Assembly: GCF_900106585.1 (NCBI RefSeq)
Contig: NZ_FNWH01000006.1
Location: forward strand, 62,001-126,000
Direction: 5' to 3'
Origin: Acidaminococcus timonensis
GTDB lineage: Bacteria > Bacillota > Negativicutes > Acidaminococcales > Acidaminococcaceae
DNA: 64,000 nt
Under the pieces are notes generated by a model. The model saw only the letters and a list, made by a program, of their open reading frames with translations, ran no database searches and was not told the DNA's origin. This document shows, piece by piece, positions 69 to 43,113 of this stretch; the first letter of the stretch is position 1, and each line of letters opens with the position of its first letter. A program made the translations under genes and the position numbers.

Positions 69-106
69 AGAGGGAGCGGTCGCATATGCGGCAGCTCCCT
101 CTTTGT
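69..106 (+). terminator. Intrinsic terminator after the partial upstream gene
   Basis: AGAGGGAGC (69-77) pairs with GCTCCCTCT (94-102), with an inner palindrome GCATATGC in the loop. The following T-rich stretch is short, so this is a moderate terminator separating the upstream gene from the gene at 154. Confidence 0.6.
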
Positions 107-153
107 GTTATACTATACCCGTAATCCTGCAGTGAAAAAGGAGCGTGTGACCC

Positions 154-34423: not shown

Positions 34424-35758
34424 TCAGAGGTGGAACAGACCCAGCATCAGACCGCAGGCCAGAGAGATCCAGGACAGGACCCACAGGCGCGGTGCGCAGA
34501 AGGTCAGCAGCTCTTTCAGGGAGATGCCGGCCAGGCCGCAGGCCAGGAAGGTGGTGGCAGCATGCGGAGTCACCATGACGCCGTAGTTCTTGCCGATCAG
34601 CATGGCCATGGCCATGTTGTGAGGATCTACGCCGAACTGTTGCCCCACACCGATGGCCAGAGGCAGCAGGCCGAAGAAGTAGGAGTCGGTGCCCAGCATC
34701 ATGCCGATGGGCACTGCGAAGAATCCGAACACATCCTGCAGATGGGGACCCAGGGCGGCCGGTACGATGGCGATCAGCATCTGGGCCATGGCCTTCATCA
34801 TGCCGGTCTTGGACAGCACACCCAGGAACACGCCGGAAGCCAGCAGGATCATGGGCATGGTCAGAGCGGTGGCAGCGTGCATCTTAATGGCACGAGCCTG
34901 GTCTTTGGCGGAATGGAAGTTGGCAATCAGGGCCACAGCCAGACCGAACATGAAGGCGCCGTACAGAGGAATCTTGGTGAAGCACAGCAGGCCGATGACG
35001 AACAGGGTCAGCAGGCCGTTGAACCAGATCATCTTGGGCCGTTTCATGAATTCTGCATCTTCAGAGGACAGATCATCGTCAGCGGATTTGTCTTCATCAT
35101 CATCCTGCAGCTGGGCAGCTTTGCCAGTGGGGACCAGGCCGGCGCCACGGCGTTTTTCCACCAGGCCCATATAGCCGGCGAAGATCATCAGGATCACCAG
35201 GCCTACCCCCTGCAGGGGAATCAGTTCCTGCCACAGGGCGTTTACATCCGCGTTCAGCACCACGCCGGTACGGGCCACAGGACCGCCCCAGGGCAGCAGG
35301 TTCATGATGGACATGGCAGCACCGATGATGCAGACCAGGACCACCGGACGCATATGCAGCTTCTTGTAGATCGGCAGCATGGCGGGGATGGTGATCAGCA
35401 GGGTGGAAGCCAGAGCGCCATCCAGGTGGGAGATAACGGCGATGCAGGCCGTTGCGATGGTGACCAGCATGATGTTGGAACCGGCTTTTTTCACCAGCCA
35501 GTTTACCATGGGGTCGAACAGCCCCATATCACCCATCATGGAGAAGTATACGATGGAGAAGATGAACAGTACAGCCGTGGACCAGGTCTTGGAGACACCG
35601 GCCTTCACGAAATCAAAGATCTGGACAGGGGTAAACCCGCAGATCAGCGCCGCGATCACAGGTACCATGACGAACAGAGGTACCGGGTTGGATTTCCCAC
35701 GGATCAGGGCGGCTACGATGATGACAACCATCAAGAAACCAACAATGCCCAAGAACAT
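34424..35758 (-). CDS. CitMHS-family citrate transporter, copy 1
   Basis: A 444-residue secondary transporter with about 12 membrane segments, of the CitMHS family (metal-citrate:proton symport; conserved NLLPWGGPVART and GDMGLFDPMV). A charged cytoplasmic loop (QDDDEDKSADDDLSS, near 228) lies in the middle. ATG 35758 has GGGGGAAA upstream; the longer frame would run into the promoter. It is almost identical to copy 2 at 36106-37440, and each copy has its own promoter and terminator. With citrate lyase next door, it should import citrate for fermentation. Confidence 0.92.
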   Translation of the reverse strand: MFLGIVGFLMVVIIVAALIRGKSNPVPLFVMVPVIAALICGFTPVQIFDFVKAGVSKTWSTAVLFIFSIVYFSMMGDMGLFDPMVNWLVKKAGSNIMLVTIATACIAVISHLDGALASTLLITIPAMLPIYKKLHMRPVVLVCIIGAAMSIMNLLPWGGPVARTGVVLNADVNALWQELIPLQGVGLVILMIFAGYMGLVEKRRGAGLVPTGKAAQLQDDDEDKSADDDLSSEDAEFMKRPKMIWFNGLLTLFVIGLLCFTKIPLYGAFMFGLAVALIANFHSAKDQARAIKMHAATALTMPMILLASGVFLGVLSKTGMMKAMAQMLIAIVPAALGPHLQDVFGFFAVPIGMMLGTDSYFFGLLPLAIGVGQQFGVDPHNMAMAMLIGKNYGVMVTPHAATTFLACGLAGISLKELLTFCAPRLWVLSWISLACGLMLGLFHL

Positions 35759-35844: not shown

Positions 35845-35876
35845 ATAGTACCATAGAAATATTCAGAAAACGAATA
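35845..35876 (-). promoter_or_regulatory. cit-type promoter of citMHS copy 1 (TATTCG-N20-TACTAT)
   Basis: On the minus strand TATTCG (35876-35871), 20 bases, TACTAT (35850-35845, -10 box). The same arrangement with exactly 20 bases precedes citMHS copy 2 and citD. Around the 5' part of this copy there is an imperfect inverted repeat ATATTC...GAATAT. The remaining intergenic DNA (35877-36060) shows no gene. Confidence 0.65.
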
Positions 35877-36061
35877 TAAAAGTTCCCATAAAATACATAA
35901 GAAAAAACTTATAGAATAGGCGTAACTCCAGACAGAATGCGGCTGCAGAGGGAGTACGGATGATATTTGAATTGAACTTCAATTAAAACAACTCAAAAGA
36001 TTTTTTCATACATGGTTCACAAATGAAGCCCTGGCCCGGAGAGCTTCCCATCTGCGCCCAT

Positions 36062-36096
36062 AAAAAAAGACTGTCGCCGAAGCGACAGTCTTTTTT
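36062..36096. terminator. Bidirectional terminator between the two citMHS genes
   Basis: GACTGTCGC (36069-36077), CGAA, GCGACAGTC (36082-36090), flanked by A7 and T6. It ends the transcript of citMHS copy 2. Confidence 0.93.
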
Positions 36097-36105
36097 GAGA
36101 TTGGA

Positions 36106-37440
36106 TCAGAGATGGAACAGACCCAGCATCAGACCGCAGGCCAGAGAGATCCAGGACAGGACCCACAGGCGCGGTGCGCAGAAGGTCAGCATTTCTTTCA
36201 GGGAGATGCCGGCCAGGCCGCAGGCCAGGAAGGTGGTGGCAGCATGCGGAGTCACCATAACGCCGTAGTTCTTGCCGATCAGCATGGCCATGGCCATGTT
36301 GTGCGGGTCAACGCCGAACTGTTGCCCCACACCGATGGCCAGAGGCAGCAGGCCGAAGAAGTAGGAGTCGGTGCCCAGCATCATGCCGATGGGCACTGCG
36401 AAGAATCCGAACACATCCTGCAGATGGGGACCCAGGGCGGCCGGTACGATGGCGATCAGCATCTGGGCCATGGCCTTCATCATGCCGGTCTTGGACAGCA
36501 CACCCAGGAACACGCCGGAAGCCAGCAGGATCATGGGCATGGTCAGAGCGGTGGCAGCGTGCATTTTAATGGCACGAGCCTGGTCTTTGGCGGAATGGAA
36601 GTTGGCGATCAGGGCCACAGCCAGACCGAACATGAAGGCGCCGTACAGAGGAATCTTGGTGAAGCACAGCAGGCCGATGACGAACAGGGTCAGCAGGCCG
36701 TTGAACCAGATCATCTTGGGCCGTTTCATGAATTCTGCATCTTCAGAGGACAGGTCATCGTCGTGGGACTGTTCATCGTCCTCGTCATGCAGCTGGGCAG
36801 CTTTGCCAGTGGGAACCAGGCCAGCGCCGCGGCGTTTTTCCAGCAGGCCCATATAGCCGGCGAAAATCATCAGGATGACCAGACCCACACCCTGCAGAGG
36901 CAGCAGTTCCTGCCACAGTTCGTTTACGTCCGCGTTCAGCACCACGCCGGTACGGGCCACAGGACCGCCCCAGGGCAGCAGGTTCATGATGGACATGGCA
37001 GCACCGATGATGCAGACCAGGACCACCGGACGCATATGCAGCTTCTTGTAGATCGGCAGCATGGCGGGGATGGTGATCAGCAGGGTGGAAGCCAGAGCGC
37101 CATCCAGGTGGGAGATAACGGCGATGCAGGCCGTTGCGATGGTAACCATCATGATGTTGGAACCGGCTTTTTTCACCAGCCAGTTCACCATGGGGTCGAA
37201 CAGGCCCATATCACCCATCATGGAGAAGTATACGATGGAGAAGATGAACAGTACAGCGGTAGACCAGGTCTTGGAAACACCGGCCTTTACGAAATCAAAG
37301 ATCTGGACAGGGGTGAACCCGCAGATCAGCGCCGCGATCACAGGTACCATGACGAACAGAGGTACCGGGTTGGATTTCCCACGGATCAGGGCGGCTACGA
37401 TGATGATAACCATCAAGAAACCAACTACGCCCAAAAACAT
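36106..37440 (-). CDS. CitMHS-family citrate transporter, copy 2
   Basis: A 444-residue protein nearly identical to copy 1 in tandem. Differences cluster in the charged cytoplasmic loop (HDEDDEQSHDDDLSS here) and the residues just before it (ELLPLQGVG, GLLEKRR), while the flanking halves differ at only a few positions even in DNA, suggesting gene conversion or a recent duplication. ATG 37440 follows AAGGAGG. It has a promoter of the shared cit type. Doubling may raise uptake capacity, or the two may differ in metal-citrate preference. Confidence 0.92.
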   Translation of the reverse strand: MFLGVVGFLMVIIIVAALIRGKSNPVPLFVMVPVIAALICGFTPVQIFDFVKAGVSKTWSTAVLFIFSIVYFSMMGDMGLFDPMVNWLVKKAGSNIMMVTIATACIAVISHLDGALASTLLITIPAMLPIYKKLHMRPVVLVCIIGAAMSIMNLLPWGGPVARTGVVLNADVNELWQELLPLQGVGLVILMIFAGYMGLLEKRRGAGLVPTGKAAQLHDEDDEQSHDDDLSSEDAEFMKRPKMIWFNGLLTLFVIGLLCFTKIPLYGAFMFGLAVALIANFHSAKDQARAIKMHAATALTMPMILLASGVFLGVLSKTGMMKAMAQMLIAIVPAALGPHLQDVFGFFAVPIGMMLGTDSYFFGLLPLAIGVGQQFGVDPHNMAMAMLIGKNYGVMVTPHAATTFLACGLAGISLKEMLTFCAPRLWVLSWISLACGLMLGLFHL

Positions 37441-37518
37441 AATGCAATATCCTCCTTAAAGATAGTGATGCGTCCCTGACGGGCAGTCAGGGAACCGAGA
37501 TATAAGTACGGTATGGTT

Positions 37519-37550
37519 ATAGTACCACATCCCAAAAGTGAAAACGAATA
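37519..37550 (-). promoter_or_regulatory. cit-type promoter of citMHS copy 2 (TATTCG-N20-TACTAT)
   Basis: TATTCG (37550-37545), 20 bases, TACTAT (37524-37519) on the minus strand, followed by a leader of about 70 bases. The stretch 37551-37721 is A+T-rich with no gene seen. Confidence 0.65.
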
Positions 37551-37721
37551 GAAAAATCAGTATGAATCACATAATTTTTTACTTATGATATATACATAGA
37601 GCAAGGATACATGCGGGTCTGCGGCTTTATATAAATTTTCTCATTTTCCCTACAAAAGAGATAACTTAATAATTTTTATTTCATTTGAAACGGTTTGGAA
37701 CGGTGGATGCCATTCAGACAC

Positions 37722-37758
37722 AAAAAGGACCCCGGGAGTTATACGACTCTCGGGGTCC
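37722..37758 (-). terminator. Terminator of the citDEF operon
   Basis: A 13-bp stem (37727-37739 with 37746-37758) with one mismatch and a TTTTT tail on the minus strand, 28 bases after the citF stop. Confidence 0.9.
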
Positions 37759-37785
37759 AGGATCTGTTCCGTTCAGAAAGCCGGA

Positions 37786-39348
37786 TTAGAATTCAGCTTT
37801 CTTCACTTGACGGACCACGTCCATCACAGAACCATCCCGTGCTTCGATGATGCCTACGATCCGGTCACCGAATTGTACAGGATCCGGTTTGCCCACCATC
37901 TTGTAGGCGGTATCCCGCAGTTCTTCGATGGTGCAGATGGGCAGATCCGTGTCTTTCACAGCATCGATGATATCCTGGCGACGGGGGTTGATGGCAATGC
38001 CATAATCCGTTACCACCACATCGACCGTTTCACCCGGAGTGGTAACGGTGGTGCAGTCGGTGCAGATGGCCGGGATACGGCCCTGCAGCAGAGGAGCGAT
38101 GACGATGGTGCATTTGGCACCGGCAGCAGTATCCGGATGGCCGCCCTGGGCACCGGTGATCACGCCGTCAGAGCCTACCACAACGTTGACGTTGAAGTGG
38201 GTATCCACTTCCAGTGCGCCCAGGATGACGTAGTCCAGCTTATTGACATAAGCGCCCTTGTTGAAGGGATCGGCATACTGGGAAGTGGTGATTTCGTAAT
38301 GGTTGGGGTTGGTCTTGATGTCTTCGATGGAAGCCATATCGAAATCCTGGGTATCCGCAATCTTGTCGATCAGGCATTCATGCTGCAGTTCGCAGATGGC
38401 CTGGGCAATACCACCCATGGCAACGCCGATGTGGATGTTATCCTTGCGCAGATGTTCGGCCAGGTATTTGGTGGAAGCAATGGAAGCACCGCCTACACCG
38501 GTCTGGTACACAAAGCCGTCCTTATACCAGGGGGTATGTACCATGAAATCAGCTGCATATTTGGCCATCAGCAGTTTCCGCTGGTCCGTGGTGGGTTTGG
38601 CAGCGCCGGTGGCAATCTTGGTGGGATCGCCGATGGCGTCCACTTTGACCACATAGTCCACGTTGGTCATGTCGATGGAAGCCGGAACGTTGGGGAAGGG
38701 AACCAGGGTATCGGTGATTACCACCACTTTGTCAGCATATTGGGCATCTACAGCAGCATACCCCAGTACGCCGCAGTCGCTGCCATTCTGGCTGCCGAAA
38801 GCACGGCAGTTGCCCATGTCGTCAGCGCAGGGAGCGCCGATGAAGGCAATGTCGATATGGGTTTCGCCGGATTCGATGGCACGGACACGGCCGCCGTGAC
38901 CGCGCATGATGGCCAGGCCCTTCAGTTTCCCATTGGAAATGGCTTCACCGATTTTGCCCCGGACGCCGGAAGCCTGGATGTTGGTGATGGTGCCATCTTC
39001 GATCATGGGAACAATCGGAGTCTGGGCTTTGCCCAGGGAAGTGGCGCAGATGGTCAGATCTTTGATGCCCATTTTGTGGACAGCTTCCATGACCATGTTG
39101 ACCACATAGTCCCCTTCACGGAAGTGATGGTGGAAGGACAGGGTCATACCATCTTTGATGCCGCATTTCTTCAGTACGTCTTCGATGGAATCTACCACTT
39201 TGCTGTAGTTCGGATCGATGACAGGAGCTACCGTATGGGTAGCGGCCTTATAGGCAACCAGATGTTTCGCATAGCTGCCGGAAAAAGGTTCTTTCCCGGT
39301 CAGTTTCAGGATCTCTTCAGGAATCTCTCTACCTACTGCGTTCTTCAT
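37786..39348 (-). CDS. citF: Citrate lyase alpha subunit (citrate:acetyl-ACP transferase)
   Basis: A 520-residue CitF, which exchanges acetyl for citryl on the acyl carrier protein. Family features: TLSFHHHFREGDYVVN, IQASGVRGKIGEAIS, FIGAPCADDMGNCRA and the Gly-rich VGGASIASTKYL. ATG 39348 (MKNAVGREIPEEI) has AAGGGGGA upstream and starts one base after the citE stop; the longer frame would overlap citE. Last gene of the minus-strand citD-citE-citF unit. Full length for the family (about 510). Confidence 0.96.
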   Translation of the reverse strand: MKNAVGREIPEEILKLTGKEPFSGSYAKHLVAYKAATHTVAPVIDPNYSKVVDSIEDVLKKCGIKDGMTLSFHHHFREGDYVVNMVMEAVHKMGIKDLTICATSLGKAQTPIVPMIEDGTITNIQASGVRGKIGEAISNGKLKGLAIMRGHGGRVRAIESGETHIDIAFIGAPCADDMGNCRAFGSQNGSDCGVLGYAAVDAQYADKVVVITDTLVPFPNVPASIDMTNVDYVVKVDAIGDPTKIATGAAKPTTDQRKLLMAKYAADFMVHTPWYKDGFVYQTGVGGASIASTKYLAEHLRKDNIHIGVAMGGIAQAICELQHECLIDKIADTQDFDMASIEDIKTNPNHYEITTSQYADPFNKGAYVNKLDYVILGALEVDTHFNVNVVVGSDGVITGAQGGHPDTAAGAKCTIVIAPLLQGRIPAICTDCTTVTTPGETVDVVVTDYGIAINPRRQDIIDAVKDTDLPICTIEELRDTAYKMVGKPDPVQFGDRIVGIIEARDGSVMDVVRQVKKAEF

Positions 39349-39349
39349 C

Positions 39350-40264
39350 TTATAAATCCCCCTTATAGACACCGGCAGCCTTGGCCATAGCGATGGTTCT
39401 CTTGGCGCCGTCATAGAAGGCGATATCCAGCATCTTGCCGTTCAGCTGGAATACACCGATACCCATGGCTTTCTTGGTGTCGATTTCCCGTACAACGGCT
39501 TCAGCCCAACGGATCTGTTTTTCGGTCGGGGTGAATACGTCATGGCAGACAGGGATCTGACGAGGGTTGATGATGGATTTGCCATCGAAGCCCATTTGTT
39601 TGATCATTTCCACATCCTTGCGGAAGCCTTCCATGTCGTCCAGGTCGGTGTAAACGGTATCGAAGCACATCCGGCCGGTAGCCCGGGCGGTGATGACCAT
39701 TTGCTGACGGGCACCCATCAGTTCCACGCCGCTCTTGGAGATGCTGGTCTGCAGGTCACGGGTGTAGTCGCCGCCGGACAGGGCGATACCGAACAGACGA
39801 TCAGAAGAAGTGCAGATGTCGTACAGGTTCAGCATGCCTTTGGTGGATTCGATGGCAGCCATGATCAGCGTGCTGCCGATGGGACGATGGAATTCTTTTT
39901 CAGCAGCCAGGATGTGTTCTTCCACGGTCTTGATGTCCTTGCCGGATTCAGTCTTGGCCAGACGGATGGCATCGCAGCCGCCGGCGACGGAAACGCGGAT
40001 ATCTTCTTTCCAGTGGGGAGTTTCCAGACCGTTGATCCGGACAACTCTTTCACAACCATGATAATCGATTTCTTTCAGAGCATGGAACAGGGAATAACGG
40101 GCAGCATCCTTCTGGTTTTCAGCTACGGCGTCTTCCAGGTCCAGCATGATGGAATCGGGTTTGTACACATACGGGTCTTTTACCAGGCTCGGTTTTTGTG
40201 CGTTCAGGAACATCATGGATCTTCTCAAACGCTTGAAGTTCGGATTCGTATTGATTACTTCCAT
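39350..40264 (-). CDS. citE: Citrate lyase beta subunit (citryl-ACP lyase)
   Basis: A 304-residue HpcH/HpaI-type TIM-barrel lyase that splits citryl-ACP into oxaloacetate and acetyl-ACP. Visible: RRSMMFLNAQKPSL at the start, MLDLEDAVAENQKDAAR (Mg ligands), VRINGLETPHW, AAIESTKGMLN and FDGKSIINPRQIPV. It begins one base after the citD stop codon, so tight coupling is expected. Confidence 0.96.
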   Translation of the reverse strand: MEVINTNPNFKRLRRSMMFLNAQKPSLVKDPYVYKPDSIMLDLEDAVAENQKDAARYSLFHALKEIDYHGCERVVRINGLETPHWKEDIRVSVAGGCDAIRLAKTESGKDIKTVEEHILAAEKEFHRPIGSTLIMAAIESTKGMLNLYDICTSSDRLFGIALSGGDYTRDLQTSISKSGVELMGARQQMVITARATGRMCFDTVYTDLDDMEGFRKDVEMIKQMGFDGKSIINPRQIPVCHDVFTPTEKQIRWAEAVVREIDTKKAMGIGVFQLNGKMLDIAFYDGAKRTIAMAKAAGVYKGDL

Positions 40265-40265
40265 G

Positions 40266-40565
40266 TTATAAGACCTCCCAGGGATTCGGCGTATCGGGGT
40301 CCTCGTTGATAGAACGGAACACAGCGCCTTCCACGCGTGCTTTTAAAGTGCAGTCCAAAGCGCCCTTGTCAACAACAGAAACCTTTGCGTTGGTTACGTC
40401 CAGTTTCTTCAGGGTTTCCAGGACAACAGCCTTGATCTGCCGTCCATATTGATGGATGACGCTGCTTTCAATGGTGAGCTCGATGCCGTTGGTACCGGGT
40501 TCAACGGTGATCTGGGCATCGGAAGACTCAACAGTGCCAGCCATGGCTGCCTTCTTCAATTCCAT
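40266..40565 (-). CDS. citD: Citrate lyase gamma subunit (acyl carrier protein)
   Basis: A 99-residue acyl carrier protein. The prosthetic-group Ser is in AGTVESSDAQI (near Ser14/15), which carries the phosphoribosyl-dephospho-CoA arm attached by CitX. AAGGAGTGATTTTAC precedes ATG 40565. First gene of the lyase operon, driven by the cit-type promoter at 40618-40649. Confidence 0.95.
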   Translation of the reverse strand: MELKKAAMAGTVESSDAQITVEPGTNGIELTIESSVIHQYGRQIKAVVLETLKKLDVTNAKVSVVDKGALDCTLKARVEGAVFRSINEDPDTPNPWEVL

Positions 40566-40617
40566 GTAAAATCACTCCTTCTGAAATAGTAAACAATATA
40601 CAGTTTGGTACACTTTG

Positions 40618-40665
40618 ATAGTAACACAGGAAAAATTGGAAATCGAATATAAATAATGATATAAT
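40618..40665. promoter_or_regulatory. Divergent promoters of citD and the LysR gene, with shared cit element
   Basis: Minus strand: TATTCG (40649-40644), 20 bases, TACTAT (40623-40618) for citD. Plus strand: TTGGAA (40636-40641), 18 bases, TATAAT (40660-40665) for the LysR gene. The CGAATA element lies inside the plus-strand spacer, so one bound regulator could control both directions, as is usual for LysR proteins. Confidence 0.65.
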
Positions 40666-40813
40666 CTTTATAAGTTGAACCTTATTAATGCGGAAGAAGC
40701 CCCGTGGAATGCGGATTCCCGGGACTTGAAAAATTGTGTCAAAATATAAGAAATTAAAACTTCTTCTAATAAACGGCGACAATCAGGGAAGAACCGAAAA
40801 ACTGGAGGGGTCT

Positions 40814-41737
40814 ATGAATCTGAAACACGCGCAATATATAATGGAAATCATCAAGCAGGGCAGCATCACCAATGCGTCCAAAACCATGCACGTTTCACAG
40901 CCGGCGCTGAGCCAGACCATCAAAGCAGTGGAAAAATATCTGGGTGCGCCCATCTTTTTGCGGAATACCAATCCCATCGTACTGACGGAAGCGGGGAAAA
41001 AATACATCGCTGCGGTGAAGCAGGTGATTACCATCAGCTCCAACCTGCTCCATGAAGTGGCGGATATCCAGTATGAAGGATATGGGACCCTTCGGCTGGG
41101 GATTCCCATCCAGCGGGCCATGCAGATGCTTCCTTCCGTAATGCCGGTGTTCCGGCAGCGCTATCCCCACATCAAGCTGAAGATCATGGAAGCAGGCAGC
41201 AACATCACGGAAAATGAGGTGCTGAACGGCGGTGTGGATCTGGCTGTGCTCACCACCACTCCCACCAACGACGAACTGAAGTATGAGCTGGTGGAAACGG
41301 AAGATGTGGTGCTGGTGGCCAATAAGATGACCACCCTGGCCCAGCGCATCAAGGGAGGAACCCCCATCCATATCACTGAGGCCAGGAATGAGGAATTCGT
41401 CTCCATTACCGAGGGCCACAATGTGCGCCGGGTGCAGGATACCCTGTTCAGCGTGTACGAGATCAAGCCCAATGTGATCCTGGAAACTTCCAGCATCGAG
41501 GTGGGCAAACGGCTGGTCTCTGCCATGGAAGCCGTATTCATCTGCCCGGATGTGTATCTGGACGATTACTTCTTGTCACAGGACAAGTGTGTGTTGTATC
41601 CTTTATTGGGCGTCGCCAACAAACGGTACTGCTACATCTGCTGCCGCAAGGACGCCTATCTCAGCCCCTATGCCCGGGCCTTCATTGAACTGATCCGGAC
41701 GCTGGGCAAGAAAAGAAAGGAACCTTATAGCAAATGA
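40814..41737 (+). CDS. LysR-family regulator of citrate genes
   Basis: A 307-residue LysR regulator: winged helix-turn-helix at residues 1-65 (SITNASKTMHVSQPALSQTIKAVEKYLGAPIFLR), then a periplasmic-binding-like effector domain (RLGIPIQRAMQMLPSVMPVFRQRYPHIKL). ATG 40814 has GGAGGGG. The gene diverges from citDEF and overlaps citXG by ATGA, so it is cotranscribed with the gene that activates the lyase. It is the natural candidate to bind the TATTCG elements; the inducer may be citrate. This link is inferred from position. Confidence 0.9.
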   Translation: MNLKHAQYIMEIIKQGSITNASKTMHVSQPALSQTIKAVEKYLGAPIFLRNTNPIVLTEAGKKYIAAVKQVITISSNLLHEVADIQYEGYGTLRLGIPIQRAMQMLPSVMPVFRQRYPHIKLKIMEAGSNITENEVLNGGVDLAVLTTTPTNDELKYELVETEDVVLVANKMTTLAQRIKGGTPIHITEARNEEFVSITEGHNVRRVQDTLFSVYEIKPNVILETSSIEVGKRLVSAMEAVFICPDVYLDDYFLSQDKCVLYPLLGVANKRYCYICCRKDAYLSPYARAFIELIRTLGKKRKEPYSK

Positions 41738-43113
41738 AAGATGTTGTGATCCGTCTGGCAGGCCCCGGGGTGGAAGTGCCGGATATGCTGATGGCACGGG
41801 ATGGCCGTGCGGCTGCCCAGCGGAAACTGCTGGACCATTTCCATAAACCCCTGCTGTTCTTTACCCAGAACATCCCCGGGCCGGTGAAGACCTCCGCCCT
41901 GATCCACCTGGGCTTCCTGGAAGGGATCCGCCGGCTGGAGAAAGCCCTGGAGGAAGCCGGCATTCCTGTCCTGTATCAGAAAACCATAGACTACAAGACG
42001 GGTTACGAAAAATATTATGTGCTGGACGGAGAGGCTCTGGCCATCAAGAAGATCGCCTGTGCCATCGAGAACGGCGACCGGCTGGGGCGGCTGTACGATA
42101 TGGACGTGCTGGCGGAAGACGGGCATAAGATTTCCCGGACGGATATCGGGCTGCCCGGGCGGCTGTGCCTGGTATGCTCCCAGCCGGCTCAGGCCTGCGC
42201 CCGCAGCCGGAAGCACAGCGTACCGGTGCTGGTGCGGAATGTCCACCGGGTGCTGGAAACCTTTCTGCTGGACCGGGTGGAGCAGGCCCTGCGGGCCGGG
42301 CTCCAGGGGGAAGTGGATGCCACCCCCAAACCGGGACTGGTGGACAGGGACAATGCCGGGGCCCACAAGGACATGGACTGGCACACTTTTGCGGCCAGCA
42401 CCGATGCCATCGTTCCCCATCTGCGCCAGATGGCGGAAAAAGGCTGGGACTGGGAAGGAAATGGGGAAGGGCTGTTCGCAGCCCTGAGGCCCATGGGGGC
42501 TGCGGCGGAAAAGGCCATGTTCCGGGCCACGGGCAATGTGAACACCCACAAGGGCATCATCTTCTCCCTGGGCCTGGTGACCAGCTTCACGATGTGGCTG
42601 CTGGCCCGCACCGGGACCGTGGACAGCGAGAAGACCCTGGCCACCATTGCGGAGGCCGTGACACCGCTCCTGGAACGGGACTTTGCCAAAATCGACCCCT
42701 ACCATCCCCATACCCACGGGGAGGTCCTGTACCTCGAGCAGGGGTGCCGGGGTATCCGGGGCGAAGCCATGGACGGATTCCCGGCGGTGGGCGATATCGC
42801 TCTGCCGGCCCTGCGGAAGTTTCGGGAAGAAGGGAAGCCGGACAACGAGGCCTACATCCAGACCCTGCTGCTGCTGCTCTCCCAGGTGGAGGACACGAAC
42901 ATTTTGAGCCGCAGCGATGCCGCTACGTTGAAGCAGGCCCAGGCCGATGCGAAAGCCGTGCTGGAAAAAGGCGGGGCCTTTACCCCGGAAGGGCTCCAGG
43001 CCGTGTGGGACCTGAACGAAAAATTCATCAGGCAGAACATCAGCCCGGGAGGCTGTGCCGATTTATTGATCCTGGCCATCTTCATGGAGAAGATGGAAGG
43101 ATTGGTGGAATGA
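41734..43113 (+). CDS. citXG: Fused CitX-CitG (apo-citrate lyase activation)
   Basis: A 459-residue fusion. Residues 1-175 match CitX, the transferase that attaches the prosthetic group to CitD (GRLYDMDVLAEDGHKISRTDIGLPGRLCLVC, then ACARSRKHSV). Residues 180-459 match CitG, which makes triphosphoribosyl-dephospho-CoA from dephospho-CoA and ATP (TPKPGLVDRDNAGAHKDMD, YHPHTHGEV, SPGGCADLLILAIFM). Putting both steps on one chain is known in other bacteria. The start overlaps the LysR stop (ATGA). The ligase CitC, which acetylates the prosthetic group, is not in this window. Confidence 0.93.
   Translation: MKDVVIRLAGPGVEVPDMLMARDGRAAAQRKLLDHFHKPLLFFTQNIPGPVKTSALIHLGFLEGIRRLEKALEEAGIPVLYQKTIDYKTGYEKYYVLDGEALAIKKIACAIENGDRLGRLYDMDVLAEDGHKISRTDIGLPGRLCLVCSQPAQACARSRKHSVPVLVRNVHRVLETFLLDRVEQALRAGLQGEVDATPKPGLVDRDNAGAHKDMDWHTFAASTDAIVPHLRQMAEKGWDWEGNGEGLFAALRPMGAAAEKAMFRATGNVNTHKGIIFSLGLVTSFTMWLLARTGTVDSEKTLATIAEAVTPLLERDFAKIDPYHPHTHGEVLYLEQGCRGIRGEAMDGFPAVGDIALPALRKFREEGKPDNEAYIQTLLLLLSQVEDTNILSRSDAATLKQAQADAKAVLEKGGAFTPEGLQAVWDLNEKFIRQNISPGGCADLLILAIFMEKMEGLVE

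Follow-up and report, generated by a model that had tools for sequence, protein, structure and literature searches.

A shared control sequence precedes all three citrate (cit) units in a 64,000-nucleotide stretch of the Acidaminococcus timonensis genome (contig NZ_FNWH01000006.1, positions 62,001 to 126,000; hereafter the window), and it is very probably the docking site of the neighbouring LysR-type regulator. The minus strand carries citD, citE, citF and two citMHS transporter genes, and lysR and a citX-citG fusion gene run divergently from citD. We propose that a single LysR switch governs citrate lyase together with the two transporters through a two-part operator, and limits expression of its own gene; we give this reading a probability of about 0.7. 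As judged from their sequences, related genomes share a composite element that is restricted to cit units, keeps a fixed geometry and, within one LysR clade, covaries at one operator base with one residue of the regulator. For Acidaminococcus, a gut anaerobe that reportedly lives on glutamate, citrate and trans-aconitate, such a regulon would be a concrete form of citrate control, with a proposed regulator, an operator and a gene list.

A composite element upstream of the cit units

Searches of the window and of the whole source genome (2,297,059 bases, or 2.30 Mb, in 6 contigs) confirmed what the first-pass annotation had described, namely identical hexamers, TATTCG and TACTAT, with exactly 20 bases between them, on the minus strand at 35845-35876, 37519-37550 and 40618-40649. 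The genome holds exactly these three exact matches, each preceding a cit unit, and none to the reversed control pattern; none of 100 window shuffles (0/100) yielded one. At up to two mismatches, the pair matched 80 times and the control 70 times. Thus, the hexamer pair is informative only if exact, and the relaxed search was dropped as useless by itself. Two further sites with one mismatch were found, at C6:62085 (window 85-116, plus strand) and C6:1077773.

When the three upstream regions were aligned without gaps, a dyad, ATAAG-N7-TTAT, was found in register, beginning exactly 36 bp upstream of each TATTCG. If TACTAT is taken as the −10 hexamer, the dyad centre falls near −66.5 and TATTCG at about −38 to −33 from the inferred start points, and the TGN before TACTAT reads by consensus as part of an extended −10. 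The dyad is placed like a LysR recognition site, centred near −66 from the inferred start. The element described in the first pass would then be the downstream half of a larger one, with the dyad as its primary site and TATTCG as a secondary box at the −35 region. The parts of the element and its proposed reader are as follows.

40670..40685, minus strand: dyad ATAAGGTTCAACTTAT, putative LysR recognition site of citD (and lysR); both arms invariant in 9/9 Acidaminococcus genomes
40644..40649, minus strand: TATTCG box of citD in the −35 region, putative second LysR contact; TATTCG or TATTAG in 9/9
40618..40626, minus strand: extended −10 TGTTACTAT of citD, by consensus reading from an inferred start
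40636..40665, plus strand: putative lysR promoter TTGGAA-N18-TATAAT, from consensus and column conservation; overlaps the box and adjoins the dyad
37571..37586, minus strand: dyad ATAAGTAAAAAATTAT of citMHS copy 2, from the composite pattern
37545..37550, minus strand: TATTCG box of citMHS copy 2, exact match
37519..37527, minus strand: putative extended −10 TGGTACTAT of citMHS copy 2
35897..35912, minus strand: dyad ATAAGTTTTTTCTTAT of citMHS copy 1, from the composite pattern
35871..35876, minus strand: TATTCG box of citMHS copy 1, exact match
35845..35853, minus strand: putative extended −10 TGGTACTAT of citMHS copy 1
40814..41737, plus strand: LysR-type regulator of 307 amino acids, proposed reader of the element; Pfam HTH_1 and LysR_substrate, recognition helix SQPALSQ

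Conservation within Acidaminococcus

We searched nine Acidaminococcus genomes with a composite pattern (dyad, 36 bp, box and −10) that was built in part on these promoters, before the citMHS sites of genomes G003, G006 and G007 had been seen. The search gave 21 sites at 0-1 mismatch (19 exact and two with one mismatch), none at two and 20 at three, compared with 26 matches in all to the reversed control at up to three mismatches. All 21 precede citD (9) or citMHS (12), and no site with 0-2 mismatches occurred elsewhere in the nine genomes. The distance from dyad start to box is 36 bp in 21/21 sites, as the pattern dictates. In the regions fetched, which set the scope for citrate transporter genes, 12 of the 13 citMHS genes carry the element; the remaining one (G002) sits about 75 bp after citF in the same direction. 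For G008, the contig examined begins inside citD.

Across the nine aligned citD-lysR regions, the two arms of the dyad are invariant, as is most of the sequence down to the −10 (49/68 core columns), and over all 21 promoters 27/68 core columns are invariant, versus 0/70 in the flank. The box itself varies: it is TATTCG before citD in four of the nine genomes and TATTAG in five, and TATTAG also occurs in several citMHS promoters, so that TATTCG is not invariant.

Could the element be no more than a core promoter that the units share through duplication, with no regulator involved? In favour of this, the box overlaps the −35 region and the citMHS genes are paralogues of each other. Their coding sequences are 96.3% identical, yet the 260-nt upstream regions match at 59.6%, compared with a shuffled mean of 61.8%. 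Because upstream similarity is at shuffle level despite near-identical coding sequences, the element has been retained while its surroundings drifted and is no duplication relic. The dyad, moreover, is not part of the core promoter, and its two arms change symmetrically from genus to genus, following the protein (see below). We therefore regard this explanation as extremely unlikely, and the idea of a citrate regulon survived the duplication test. Within a genome, the citMHS copies are closest to each other in three of the five two-copy genomes (G000, G001 and G002, not G004 or G005), and the tandem copies therefore look homogenised, in the coding part and not upstream.

The columns that are invariant in the nine citD promoters and vary before citMHS correspond to the lysR promoter on the other strand. 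Its −35 hexamer is TTGGAA in 5/9 genomes and ATGGAA in 4/9, followed after 18 bp by TATAAT (9/9), which is preceded by TGA or TGG. On this consensus reading, the citD operator and the lysR promoter overlap, as is usual where a regulator represses its own gene. The first-pass annotation had placed the box inside the divergent lysR promoter in general; this holds at the citD site and not at the two citMHS sites.

A second conserved element of the Acidaminococcus cit promoters is CCGCAT, present in 13/21 of them, 29 bp (citD) or 30 bp (citMHS) upstream of the dyad. In the window it occurs on the minus strand at 40709-40714, 37611-37616 and 35937-35942, 29-30 bp upstream of each dyad. In some species, it falls within an apparent hairpin of the lysR leader, as read by eye from the alignment.

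The citC gene (L031 1435-2481; G000:C4, at C4:20675), on a different contig from the cit cluster, had been suggested as a possible further carrier of the motif. Its upstream region has a terminator-like stretch and TATAAT and no element; together with the composite search of the nine genomes, this ruled it out as a fourth target. Given its separate contig and the missing element, the ligase that activates the lyase seems to be regulated separately from the cluster.

The element in other Negativicutes

A close relative of the LysR protein was found in 12 of 300 Negativicutes genomes, nine of them Acidaminococcus, and a profile of twelve sequences found relatives in 34 of the 300, some of which were fetched. 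In the set examined, nine genomes of other genera (G155, G020, G099, G063, G167, G073, G127, G095 and G096) have a LysR gene of this clade divergent from citDEF, with one extra gene before citD in G095 and G096. In seven of the nine, TATTNG is followed after exactly 20 bp by a −10-like hexamer (TANNNT in five, TANNNC in two); the exact pattern arose in 9 to 61 of 2000 shuffles of these regions. At offset −36 the dyad ATAN-N8-N'TAT is perfect in five genomes, has three of four pairs in two, and is shifted by a single base in two, G020 and G127, the latter with N7. This offset was the best of 81 tested, with a mean of 3.22 of 4 pairs versus 1.14 (standard deviation 0.47). A class-wide search with the composite pattern (300 genomes, up to two mismatches) gave, outside Acidaminococcus, a single match with one mismatch, in G070, and scattered matches with two in other genomes, which we read as chance. 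G070 has a LysR gene of the clade and no cit genes within the 15 kb fetched.

We also surveyed 60 citF upstream regions, of which seven were left out for want of a recognisable citD or citE. Most of the 19 cases with a divergent LysR-type gene belong to a second LysR clade, which lies divergent from citDEF in many other Negativicutes (survey loci L155-L214). At these loci a citMHS gene often lies beyond the LysR gene, and the TATTNG-N20 layout is mostly missing. ATAA dyads precede 6/22 Ala31 genes of the second clade (residue 31 is defined below), where 1.53 are expected.

Operator base 4 covaries with residue 31 of the regulator

The strongest evidence that LysR, and not another protein, reads the dyad is covariation between the fourth base of the dyad half-site (base 4) and residue 31, the x in the recognition helix QPxLSQ. 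Alanine occurs with ATAA (Acidaminococcus, G020 and G127), serine with ATAG (G155, G073 and G096), and histidine with ATAC (G099, G063 and G167). In G096, the ATAG dyad at −36 is imperfect in its right arm, and a perfect ATAG dyad lies over the box. The only regulator with tyrosine, in G095, is accompanied by just an imperfect ATAT. In a FastTree phylogeny (59 sequences, rooted at the midpoint, support values not considered), alanine and serine each occur in both subclades, so the match between residue and base need not be one inherited state.

As a second check, we scanned 300 nt upstream of clade members without cit genes in the fetched flanks. ATAG..CTAT lies upstream of 7/11 Ser31 genes in this set (0.33 expected), ATAA of 0/11 (1.55 expected) and ATAC of 1/11, counts that overstate independence because several of these genomes are related. 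The only Ala31 gene of the set has ATAA, and also ATAC, and its Leu31 and Thr31 genes have none of the three dyads within the 300 nt scanned.

At even odds, this Negativicutes clade has a one-residue code: residue 31 would decide which base stands fourth in the half-site (Ala-ATAA, Ser-ATAG, His-ATAC), with the promoter grammar otherwise nearly frozen (dyad, 36 bp, TATTNG, 20 bp, −10). CcpC of Bacillus, discussed below, fits the code, as would be expected if tricarboxylate-sensing LysR switches were an old family sharing one promoter grammar. If true, the match would allow operators to be predicted in this clade. Our literature search found no LysR residue-base code in titles or the beginnings of abstracts.

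A proposed mechanism and its relation to known LysR switches

In the proposed mechanism, a LysR dimer would hold the ATAAG-N7-TTAT dyad near −66 in vivo, and a second dimer would contact TATT(C/A)G, the degenerate box that covers the −35 region next to a poor −35 and the extended −10. A ligand, probably citrate and possibly another tricarboxylate, would shift the second contact and so recruit RNA polymerase, switching on citDEF and both citMHS genes together. At citD, where the divergent lysR promoter occupies the same DNA, bound LysR would limit its own synthesis. The first-pass annotation had predicted a citrate regulon with one activator. The shared element, its restriction to cit genes in nine genomes, the conserved columns and the covariation all speak for the regulon; we infer both the activating role and citrate as the ligand.

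Growth on citrate, and on trans-aconitate via citrate, has been reported for A. fermentans (PMC3035267), which makes several tricarboxylates candidates for the ligand. The same genome paper remarks that citrate and trans-aconitate gene order differs in A. intestini D21, which might mean different regulation (PMC3035267); here the operator moved along with each unit.

The Acidaminococcus regulator probably works as a LysR switch in the manner of CcpC, BenM or TarR. CcpC, a citrate-responsive LysR protein that acts at citB in Bacillus and Listeria, likewise has an ATAA..TTAT dyad at −66 (site I, ATAA-N7-TTAT) and a TATT box near −35 (site II, TATT-N3-TTAT), the second site spanning about −35 to −27 and being loosened by citrate (PMC8514465, PMC13288900). 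Its helix, SQPALSQ, is the same as in the Acidaminococcus protein. The operators differ in detail: Acidaminococcus has ATAA-N8-TTAT, and its TATT box continues with TTTC as the second half, whereas G099, G063 and G155 have TATT-N4-TTAT. CcpC also governs tricarboxylic acid cycle genes, mainly by repression, unlike the cit units here. Orthology was rejected (84.1 bits versus a cut-off of 400 for NCBIfam NF058504), and we do not claim CcpC membership.

The CcpC precedent suggests that LysR might use the same operator chiefly as a repressor, shutting the promoter off from both sites and releasing the −35 box when citrate rises. A LysR-type gene also adjoins the citrate lyase genes in E. coli, where CitR (YbdO), comparable by gene position only, represses ybdNM and citCDEF expression rises when it is deleted (PMC9068703). 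We consider chiefly repressive control unlikely at the Acidaminococcus promoters, which combine a poor −35 with an extended −10, as expected where a promoter needs help. A regulator gene divergent from a catabolic operon is, in addition, the usual layout of LysR activators. We thus favour ligand-dependent activation over CcpC-like derepression.

In Bacillus velezensis, TarR, encoded divergently from tarAB, activates trans-aconitate uptake and use via TTATAA palindromes (PMC11495376); it differs from the cit-linked LysR in both enzymes and operator. The likelier TarR counterpart in A. timonensis is a paralogue at C6:1207063, which runs divergently from genes for a PrpF-like isomerase and for a transporter without an NCBIfam model match (L215 1792-5472; G000:C6 about 1204291-1207971), an arrangement that resembles TarR-TarA-TarB. 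This paralogue belongs to the same clade, and its trans-aconitate-type locus makes it a candidate for another LysR of the genome that reads the cit element. We find this very unlikely. Its helix is QPTLSK rather than QPALSQ, none of the three dyads tested was found upstream of it, the cit-linked LysR co-occurs with the element in 9/9 Acidaminococcus genomes, and it is the cit-linked genes that show the helix-base match.

CatM and BenM of Acinetobacter, which unlike the Acidaminococcus regulator serve aromatic catabolism, bind ATAC-N7-GTAT at Site 1 and a degenerate Site 2 near −35 (PMC6628147). CatM has proline at position 31 (QPPLSR) together with ATAC, and the residue-31 code is therefore not universal.

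The cit element also shares the general LysR-type arrangement of a dyad near −65 and a second site near −35, relative to the inferred start. Its four-base arms are separated by N8, which corresponds to T-N12-A rather than the T-N11-A that is usual for LysR-type operators, though it does not define the LysR protein family; G127, with N7, has T-N11-A. The Acidaminococcus cit regulon would be another case of a known type of LysR switch, and what is unusual is the readable operator code. No described LysR citrate-lyase regulon in Negativicutes was recognised in our literature search, most subscription papers being outside its reach.

Several observations weigh against the proposed switch or its code. 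Two of the three His31 promoters (G099 and G063) also have an ATAA dyad over the box, the predicted dyad is missing in four of the 11 Ser31 genes not beside cit, and no ATAG dyad (0/3) accompanies the Ser31 genes of the second clade. The geometry deviates in G155 (spacing of 19) and G020 (AATTTG with a spacing of 21), and the dyads at −36 are imperfect in G095 and G096. In the citF survey, exact TATTNG-N20-TANNNT occurred in just 4/19 regions with a divergent LysR-type gene, versus 1/34 without. The citrate-binding Arg147 and Arg260 of CcpC are untraceable in the cit-linked protein, sequence similarity ending near residue 152. Finally, a consensus scan for the lysR promoter found no more matches than shuffles (4 versus 5.5 expected).

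Protein families encoded by the cluster

The regulator encoded at 40814..41737 belongs, by its domain matches, to the LysR-type family (PF00126, HTH_1, 60.9 bits; PF03466, LysR substrate-binding, 119.4 bits; both above cut-off). It is 96% identical to its counterparts in Acidaminococcus massiliensis and A. fermentans (class Negativicutes). Protein-model searches bore out the first-pass names of the units, citMHS, citMHS and citDEF. CitF (679.6 bits versus a cut-off of 501.45) and CitD (114.3 versus 63.5) scored above threshold, and both CitMHS proteins passed the TIGR00784 cut-off of 259.7 (262.3 and 264.3 bits). CitE fell below its cut-off (345.2 versus 443.4 bits), yet citE is its best model. 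The remaining genes of the cluster are listed here.

41734..43113, plus strand: citX-citG fusion, downstream of lysR; protein-model search
40266..40565, minus strand: citD, citrate lyase acyl carrier protein; protein-model search
39350..40264, minus strand: citE, citrate lyase beta subunit; best model TIGR01588, below its cut-off
37786..39348, minus strand: citF, citrate lyase alpha subunit; protein-model search
36106..37440, minus strand: citMHS copy 2, citrate transporter; protein-model search
34424..35758, minus strand: citMHS copy 1, citrate transporter; searched with one extra 5' codon, to 35761

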